Of a DNA stretch of 48,208 nt, positions 12,208-27,797 are shown piece after piece. The stretch covers positions 1 through 48,208 of the forward strand of contig JABDQW010000023.1 in the NCBI GenBank assembly GCA_013042055.1. Reading direction: 5' to 3'. A model generated the notes under the pieces. That model ran no database searches. It was not told the DNA's origin and saw only the letters and a program-made list of their open reading frames with translations. Source of the DNA: Gammaproteobacteria bacterium. GTDB taxonomy: Bacteria; Pseudomonadota; Gammaproteobacteria; SZUA-229. Both the position numbers and the translations under genes were made by a program. Positions within the stretch are counted from its first letter, which is position 1. Every line of letters begins with the position of its first letter.

Positions 12208-12239
12208 GCCGATTGTGAGAAATGCGGGCTAGCTGTGAT

Positions 12240-13193
12240 ATGAGTGTCAAGCAGTCCAATTTACACTTGTACCGATTTCGGATGGAATTGTTGCATCCGA
12301 GACATTGGCCTACCTGGGTGGGTTTGGGTGTTTACTTCGTTTTCACGTTGTTGCCAATGACCGTGATCGATTGGGCGGGCTGTCGACTGGGTGACTATGT
12401 TGCGAAGAAAAACAGGAAACGATTCAATATTGCCTGCGTCAATCTGGCGCTCTGCTTTCCTGACAAGAGCAAGCTCGAGATCGATCACCTGGTGATCGAG
12501 CATTTTCGTGCGCAGTTGCGTACCGCAATGCATTTGTTCATCGTCTGGTGGCGGCCGGTATTCATGGTCAGAGCCAGGATTGTTCGGCAAGGCTTTGAGC
12601 AGATCGATTATTTCAAGGCACAGGGAAAGCAAGTCATTGTCTTACTCAGCCACAGTGTCGGGCTGGATTTTGCAGCGGCAGCGGTTACGATGGATTACAA
12701 TACCAATGGTGTGTATAAGCCAATGCGAAATGAAGTAATCGACTTTATGTTCAGCCATGGACGTACGCGGTTTGGCGCCAAGTTTGGCGGTAAATTGTTT
12801 ACCCGGGACGATGGATTGCGCCCTTTGATCCGGGAAACCCGGGCGGGCAAGGTGCTGATCTATATCGCTGATGAGGATCTGGGAAAAGAGAACTCGGTGT
12901 TTGCGCCTTTTTTCGGTGTGCCCAAATCGACCATACCGGTGCTTGGACGGATGACCAAAGCCTGTAATGCAGTGGTTCTGCCCTGCGTCAGTTGCTATGA
13001 TCCAGCCCGTAAGAAATACCGCGTCAAATTGTACCCCGCGCTCGAAAACTTCCCCAGTGGCGATGATCAGGTTGATGCGACCGCTATGAACAAGGCGATC
13101 GAAAACACCATTCTCGAGTGCCCGCCGCAGTATTTGTGGACGTTCCGGTATTTCCAGACCCGACCTGAGGGCGAGGCGCCGGTTTATGAATAG
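12240..13193 (+). CDS. LpxL/HtrB-like lipid A biosynthesis (lysophospholipid) acyltransferase
   Basis: HSVGLDF (HX4D) motif, IYIADEDLGKENSVFAPFFGVPKSTIPVLGRM, PPQYLWTFRYFQTRPEGE. The track start at 12222 lies inside an intergenic repeat, so ATG 12240 is preferred. Confidence 0.9.
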   Translation: MSVKQSNLHLYRFRMELLHPRHWPTWVGLGVYFVFTLLPMTVIDWAGCRLGDYVAKKNRKRFNIACVNLALCFPDKSKLEIDHLVIEHFRAQLRTAMHLFIVWWRPVFMVRARIVRQGFEQIDYFKAQGKQVIVLLSHSVGLDFAAAAVTMDYNTNGVYKPMRNEVIDFMFSHGRTRFGAKFGGKLFTRDDGLRPLIRETRAGKVLIYIADEDLGKENSVFAPFFGVPKSTIPVLGRMTKACNAVVLPCVSCYDPARKKYRVKLYPALENFPSGDDQVDATAMNKAIENTILECPPQYLWTFRYFQTRPEGEAPVYE

Positions 13194-13270
13194 TGCCTCA
13201 GTTTTCGAGGGGGAAGCAGGGATTGACTCGAGATTCCCTGTTTGACGTGCGTGCGGTTATGACGGGCATT

Positions 13271-13294
13271 AAAAAACCCCCGGTTGCCCGGGGG
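13271..13294 (-). terminator. Rho-independent terminator of the minus-strand candidate sRNA
   Basis: Minus strand CCCCCGGGCAACCGGGGG followed by TTTTTT (plus: aaaaaacccccggttgcccggggg). Confidence 0.9.
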
Positions 13295-13459
13295 TACGCA
13301 AACGTCCTTGCTAGGTGATCGAGCCTCGCGCTAGTGCAGTTCCATTACAGCCTGTTGTTCCATCCGGGAGTATGTCATCCTTGGGTTCCGTTTCCCGTAT
13401 CCGTGTGATACTGCAGTTATGTCCTTATGTCCCTGTTCGGCTCATTCCCTGTGTCCTGT
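13271..13459 (-). ncRNA. Candidate CsrB/RsmZ-type CsrA-sequestering sRNA
   Basis: Minus strand contains 12 GGA motifs between 13456 and 13305 (e.g. CAGGACAC, AGGGACATAAGGACA, ACGGATACGGGAAACGGAACCC, AAGGATG, CCGGATGGAAC, AAGGACG). It ends in a GC hairpin plus T6. CATAAT -10-like box at 13470-13465. No credible ORF. Upstream GacA-box-like palindrome. Confidence 0.82.
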
Positions 13460-13514
13460 AATGAATTATGCAGCGGTCGCGGCAATCAATCTATCAGGAG
13501 GAATTGACATTGTG

Positions 13515-13532
13515 TGTAGGAAAAATCCTACA
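13515..13532. promoter_or_regulatory. GacA/UvrY-like upstream activating palindrome
   Basis: TGTAGG-AAAAAT-CCTACA; same geometry as the known TGTAAG-N6-CTTACA UAS. It also overlaps a -35 position for a plus-strand TATAAT at 13538-13543 upstream of dtd. Confidence 0.7.
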
Positions 13533-13568: not shown

Positions 13569-14006
13569 ATGATCGCTTTATTGCAACGAGTCATATCCGC
13601 TTCGGTTACCGTCGAGGATGAGCGTATTGCCGACATCGGGCAGGGGCTGCTGGCGCTGATTGGCGTTGAGAAAAACGATACCGTGGCCAAGGCCGAGCGA
13701 CTGGCGGAGCGCATCCTGGGATACCGGGTATTTGCCGATGAGCGTGACAAAATGAACCAGAATGTCTGTAATGTCAACGGGAGTGTTTTGCTCGTGCCGC
13801 AGTTCACCCTGGCTGCGGACACCCGCAAGGGCATGCGGCCGAGTTTTTCCAGTGCCGCCGATCCCGAAACAGGAAGGATCTTGTTCGATCAACTTGTTGA
13901 TATAATGCGGAAACGAACTGACCGGATTCAAATCGGCAGATTTGGCGCCGATATGGCGGTAAAGTTGGTGAACGATGGTCCGGTGACGATTTGGTTGCGA
14001 GCCTGA
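13569..14006 (+). CDS. dtd: D-aminoacyl-tRNA deacylase
   Basis: MIALLQRVISASVTVEDE; VLLVPQFTLAADTRKGMRPSFSSAADP; VNDGPVTIWL. Confidence 0.96.
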   Translation: MIALLQRVISASVTVEDERIADIGQGLLALIGVEKNDTVAKAERLAERILGYRVFADERDKMNQNVCNVNGSVLLVPQFTLAADTRKGMRPSFSSAADPETGRILFDQLVDIMRKRTDRIQIGRFGADMAVKLVNDGPVTIWLRA

Positions 14007-27442: not shown

Positions 27443-27797
27443 TGGTGGGCCTGGAAGGACTCGAACCTTCGACCAATGGATTCACTTGTCCCCGGTATTT
27501 CTATCGGGAGCGGACTATCTCATCACCCTCAGCTGCCCCATTTTTCAGAACCACTGTTAGAGTGCGGGACGCTTGAACCTGTTATTAAGAACACTCGGTA
27601 TCTAAACCAGTTCTCAGGTAGTCTCTGCACCTTCCGGAAGTGTACTCCCGGTTTGGCTCAGGGTTGCCAGCAGTCGAATCTTTACTGAGACTGGCTGTTA
27701 AGGTTTCCCTGAATTCATCCCGTTCATCTCATTTCTTTCGAAATGAGCGCACCTTTTTTGATGAGTCCACTGCTCTAACCAACTGAGCTACAGGCCC
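27443..27797 (-). tRNA. tRNA-Ile(CAU) interrupted by a group I intron
   Basis: Exons join to GGGCCTGTAGCTCAGTTGGTTAGAGCAGTGGACTCATAATCCATTGGTCGAAGGTTCGAGTCCTTCCAGGCCCACCA (77 nt): 7-bp acceptor GGGCCTG/CAGGCCC, anticodon arm GTGGA-CTCATAA-TCCAT, T arm GAAGG-TTCGAGT-CCTTC, encoded CCA. 5' exon 27797-27761, 3' exon 27482-27443. Confidence 0.93.
27483..27760 (-). other. Group I self-splicing intron (278 nt, no ORF) in tRNA-Ile(CAU) anticodon loop
   Basis: Follows exon U (CAU|) and ends in G. GAAA-capped P2 (CTCATTTC-GAAA-GAAATGAG). P4 strands TCAGGG/CCCTGA, P5 GCCAG/CTGGC. R-like GTGCAGAGACTA and S-like GATAGTCC give P7 GACTA/TAGTC. Confidence 0.92.

Follow-up and report, generated by a model that had tools for sequence, protein, structure and literature searches.

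A predicted GacA-activated, CsrA-titrating small RNA in a family of uncultured gammaproteobacteria

The minus strand between an acyltransferase gene and dtd in an uncultured gammaproteobacterium is read here, with a probability of about 0.9, as encoding a free-standing sRNA of the CsrB/RsmZ functional class, predicted to be activated by GacA and to titrate CsrA. The window, meaning the whole 48,208-nt stretch of DNA that was analysed, corresponds to contig C82 in a draft genome totalling 3.55 Mb over 312 contigs, with 92% completeness. As judged from sequence, the RNA is a new sequence family within a known functional class, and its role is very probably that of a GacA-activated sequesterer of CsrA. 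An earlier note on this DNA had proposed just such a new member of the Csr/Rsm functional class, a proposal supported by family-wide conservation, promoter geometry, the GGA motifs, covariation, and the presence of csrA and a GacS/BarA-like kinase.

We infer transcription, GacA dependence, and the binding and titration of CsrA in the following terms. Phosphorylated GacA (UvrY) would bind an upstream palindrome and bring about transcription from a CATAAT promoter, and the resulting RNA of roughly 190 nt would terminate at an intrinsic terminator. The 5' and 3' parts of the RNA would close into a short helix, while roughly 12 GGA motifs, largely unpaired, would bind several CsrA dimers and thereby titrate CsrA away from its mRNA targets.

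Read along the minus strand from 13532 to 13270, the locus opens with an 18-bp palindrome of the GacA/UvrY type, TGTAGGATTTTTCCTACA (TGTAGG-N6-CCTACA; 13515-13532), which its sequence and conservation mark as a probable upstream activating site. A CTGATAG element (13491-13497), which only very few copies in alignment A2 lack, lies between this box and a CATAAT -10 box (13465-13470), and CATA[AC]T occupies the same position in nearly all relatives. The predicted sRNA, delimited by a covariance model and by GGA counts, covers 13270-13459 (about 188-190 nt, with 12 GGAs). Its start probably lies 6-8 nt 3' of the -10 box, and the GGA-rich stretch begins at about 13459. Near the 5' end is a GGA module, GGACA-N3-GGA-...-GGACATAAGGA (13422-13456); in a closing helix, the 5' arm GAGCC (13439-13443) is matched by a 3' arm, GGCUC (GGCTC in the DNA; 13322-13326), close to the 3' end of the RNA, and a conserved AUCACC segment follows. 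Finally, the intrinsic terminator (13270-13295) consists of an 8-bp G+C-rich stem with a 4-nt loop (13295-13276) and a T6 tract (13275-13270). Every element described in the earlier note was found where it had been placed, base for base: the CATAAT box and the palindrome are both present, a count confirms the 12 GGA triplets of the minus-strand transcript, and the minus-strand terminator is indeed the sole terminator-like site between the two flanking genes. These neighbours, the convergent acyltransferase gene (12222-13193, plus strand) and the divergent dtd (13569-14006, plus strand in the ORF list; D-aminoacyl-tRNA deacylase in the earlier note's naming), both lie outside the RNA.

Taken by itself, the single sequence is suggestive but not decisive. 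No other segment of the window, on either strand, matches 12 GGAs in 190 nt (the mean is about 2 and the plus-strand maximum 8), but a first-order Markov model derived from this transcript gives the count a P of about 0.04, an enrichment that is only modest. The fold stability of the lone transcript is not significant (z = -1.35). The box TGTARG-N6-CYTACA has exactly one match in the 3.55-Mb assembly, at the sRNA locus; this uniqueness was dropped as stand-alone evidence, as about one chance match per 3.5 Mb is expected for this class of palindrome by our own estimate and a control read backwards also gives one. It is the conservation of the box, -10 box, GGAs, helix, and terminator in relatives that shows the element to be more than chance.

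BLAST against six genomes of the same genus recovered the element from five, with 73-81% identity. A covariance model, R1, built from ten copies of the transcript only and beginning 3' of the -10 box, matches its own genome in a single copy (13268-13464, 203.8 bits) and detects the element in 44 of the 54 genomes that represent the family; in the tally of good-quality family genomes, 20 of 22 genomes and 12 of 14 genera are represented. Outside the family a match is rare, with 8 of 274 genomes of the class giving one, and three of those eight are themselves family members. Palindrome, GGA cluster, and terminator, the combination whose conservation had been put forward as a check on the original proposal, are kept together in relatives. 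Two or three R1 matches each occur in the genomes of genus g12 (G063, G064, G066, G067, and G069), which suggests that copies of the sRNA gene have been duplicated there.

Because R1 begins after the -10 box, the upstream box serves as an independent test of the assignment. A GacA-type box, TGTARG-N6-CYTAC[AG], stands upstream in 38 of the 39 aligned copies; for UvrY, the published site is the inverted repeat TGTAAG-N6-CTTACA, 18 nt long (PMC4682653; also PMC3171408). In our own copy the -10 box is 44 nt downstream of the palindrome, and across the alignment the spacing from the box to CATA[ACT]T is 43-44 nt in 25 copies and 66-67 nt in 12. The two spacings differ by about 23 bp, or two helical turns, a step that would fit an activator having to face the polymerase. 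The CTGATAG element precedes the -10 box by about 21 bp, off the standard -35 spacing.

Within the transcript, the 39 aligned copies carry 10-17 GGAs each, and the first four, which make up the 5' module, occupy unchanged columns in 36-39 of the 39. The idea that the GGAs sit in loops was favoured in aggregate by fold predictions, which in 36 of 39 copies leave the guanines of GGAs less paired than the remaining guanines, but not motif by motif, as the predictions for individual GGAs are mixed. For the terminator and closing helix together, 91.8% of cells are paired across the 39 copies, with a covariation score of 0.483 versus 0.180 for shuffled and at most 0.095 for slid alignments. Most of that covariation comes from the terminator, in whose stem seven of nine pairs have changes on both sides. 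The closing helix takes different forms at the same place in different genera (GAGCC/GGCUC, GAGUC/GACUC, AUGGC/GCCAU, and UUGGC/GCCAA), its register varies among groups of genera, and its support against single-sequence shuffles is marginal. Run on the whole alignment, RNAalifold recovered nothing but the terminator; the closing helix was instead specified explicitly and its pairs counted. The AUCACC segment 3' of the helix is near-invariant, with ATCACC in 33 of 39 copies.

These comparative data bear directly on the other ways of reading the locus. A chance purine-rich intergenic stretch, ending in the terminator of an unseen upstream gene, would fit the modest single-sequence statistics, but it is refuted by family-wide conservation, fixed promoter geometry, and covariation, and the ORF list holds no minus-strand ORF of at least 60 aa within 13268-13470 to supply such a gene; next to no credence can be given to it. 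Less easily dismissed, though still unlikely, is a real GacA-activated sRNA that acts chiefly by pairing with mRNAs (Hfq- or ProQ-type) through a seed in its conserved 3' part, GAGGCUCAAUCACCWAG, with the GGAs secondary. AUCACC is among the best-conserved parts of the RNA, is found again in two RNAs with GacA boxes from beyond the family (L157 and L160), and is absent from the E. coli csrB sequence examined, and CsrA titration alone leaves its conservation near the 3' end unexplained. The 10-17 GGAs of each copy and their positional conservation, however, are predicted by CsrA titration and are not needed by a seed RNA, and the two activities are compatible rather than mutually exclusive. It is tempting, if speculative, to suggest a family-wide Csr sRNA of dual function, in which GGA titration is joined by another activity, be it base-pairing, protein binding, or controlled decay, that depends on the closing helix and AUCACC. 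Were that so, AUCACC, which is also present in RNAs behind GacA boxes in other gammaproteobacterial families, might identify a broader clan of Csr RNAs that has gone unrecognised.

The position beside dtd raises another alternative, namely that the palindrome and divergent transcript form a cis element controlling dtd or the downstream his genes. The dtd start codon is 37 bp from the palindrome, and a TATAAT lies 5 bp beyond the palindrome in the dtd direction. But the sRNA overlaps neither dtd nor the acyltransferase gene and is directed away from dtd, and although dtd adjoins it in most relatives, within the short flanks examined dtd was not found beside the copies L067, L071, L057, L028, and L026, which belong to several genera. 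Moreover, the spacing of the dtd-side TATAAT is inconstant even within the genus, whereas that of the sRNA-side CATAAT is constant, and control of dtd in cis is accordingly very improbable. Nor is there support for the earlier note's suggestion that a Gac/Rsm cascade is linked to this particular locus. Because it overlaps no gene, points the opposite way, and was not found next to dtd in several genera, the sRNA is likely to exert its effect on CsrA in trans, and on the evidence of the flanking sequences its association with dtd is one of neighbourhood only.

The titration reading calls for regulatory partners, and these were sought in the same genomes. The csrA gene was found in our own genome (92.5 bits, over the cut-off), and encodes a canonical product of 62 aa; it adjoins an aspartokinase gene and lies near tRNA-Ser and tRNA-Arg. 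Almost all family genomes without csrA are also without the neighbouring lysC, so its absence from several relatives looks like a gap left by missing csrA-lysC regions, and true absence was set aside. A full-length match to a BarA/GacS-like kinase is present in our own genome at C189. For gacA, the expectation held in four sister genomes (G001, G002, G004, and G006), whose homologues are 50-52% identical to UvrY, but not in our own 3.55-Mb draft assembly, where neither gacA nor uvrC was found. In G002, gacA is one gene away from uvrC, and our own syntenic contig, C273, begins just beyond the gacA-uvrC stretch; the loss is therefore likely an assembly gap, with a contig break as the probable cause of the missing gacA.

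GacA-type boxes also occur at other loci. L157 (genome G139) and L160 (genome G101), two of the R1 matches from outside the family, possess a TGTAGG-N6-CCTACA box, a short GGA-rich RNA, a terminator, and the AUCACC segment, and may be regarded as candidate further Csr RNAs with no Rfam match. At L053 (G009:C661), L017 (G050:C13), and L016 (G051:C40), a GacA-type box is followed by a shorter RNA with 5-8 GGAs and a terminator. At L053, CATACT lies 44 nt 3' of the box, and this RNA could be a second, RsmX/Y-like species. Relatives also carry extra GacA boxes with no GGA-rich RNA downstream.

Elsewhere in the window, at 27491-27772 on the minus strand, is a Group I intron (Rfam RF00028, 78.8 bits, E 1.8e-18). 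The tRNA that it interrupts, in the anticodon loop, has an apparent CAT anticodon and is recovered by ARAGORN once introns are allowed. Introns of this group are already known from bacterial tRNAs.

The sRNA itself has no match to the Rfam models for CsrB (RF00018), CsrC, RsmX, RsmY, or RsmZ at gathering or permissive thresholds, in searches that extended to E = 5 for L002-L011 and to E = 2 for 15 divergent loci; as a positive control, E. coli csrB matches the CsrB model at 365 bits. A scan with the CsrB and RsmX/Y/Z models had been put forward as a check, and since none of them matches, the RNA would be a functional analogue that cannot be recognised as belonging to those sequence families. 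The GacA site and GGA motifs have been used together as predictors of CsrA/RsmA-regulating sRNAs (PMC5568370 and its predecessor), and the portions of that work consulted do not mention this lineage; nor did a literature search of partial coverage find any such RNA for it.

Csr sRNAs diverge fast and escape sequence models, so whole lineages appear to have CsrA without an antagonist. A probable antagonist is now supplied for one family of uncultured gammaproteobacteria, placing the GacS/GacA-CsrA cascade there, and the covariance model detects the sRNA in most family members. The predicted GacA promoter has a very regular geometry, and the conserved helix and 3' motif are open to functional testing.

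Among known systems, the short distance from box to promoter resembles that of rsmX and rsmY, and the RNA has more GGAs than Pseudomonas RsmX, RsmY, or RsmZ. Like these three, it is short and combines GGA motifs with an upstream palindrome; the three depend on GacA, and the palindrome is their upstream activating sequence (PMC2375449), and a like dependence on GacA is predicted here. Unlike them, it has no Rfam match, and the new family has a 5'-3' closing helix and an AUCACC tail.

The E. coli CsrB and CsrC RNAs likewise have many GGAs, an upstream 18-bp UvrY palindrome, an intrinsic terminator, and an intergenic location, in a cell with csrA and barA/uvrY (PMC4682653); our own assembly has csrA and a barA-like gene, with gacA only in the sister genomes. 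The sRNA described here is about half the length of CsrB, with 12 GGAs as opposed to 22 (PMC11882849), and its palindrome is centred about 66 nt before the probable start, compared with -183 in E. coli csrB.

Shewanella CsrB1/CsrB2 and Pseudoalteromonas Pf1-Pf3 were found by the same search logic (GGA repeats, a promoter or UvrY box, and a terminator). They differ in organism and in scale, the Shewanella RNAs being about 420 nt (PMC3171408) and Pf1-Pf3 having 25, 21, and 9 GGAs, respectively (PMC11882849). Both sets were experimentally confirmed after prediction (PMC3171408; PMC11882849). Taken as a whole, its architecture is one held in common with E. coli csrB (PMC4682653), Shewanella CsrB1/CsrB2 (PMC3171408), and Pseudoalteromonas Pf1-Pf3 (PMC11882849).
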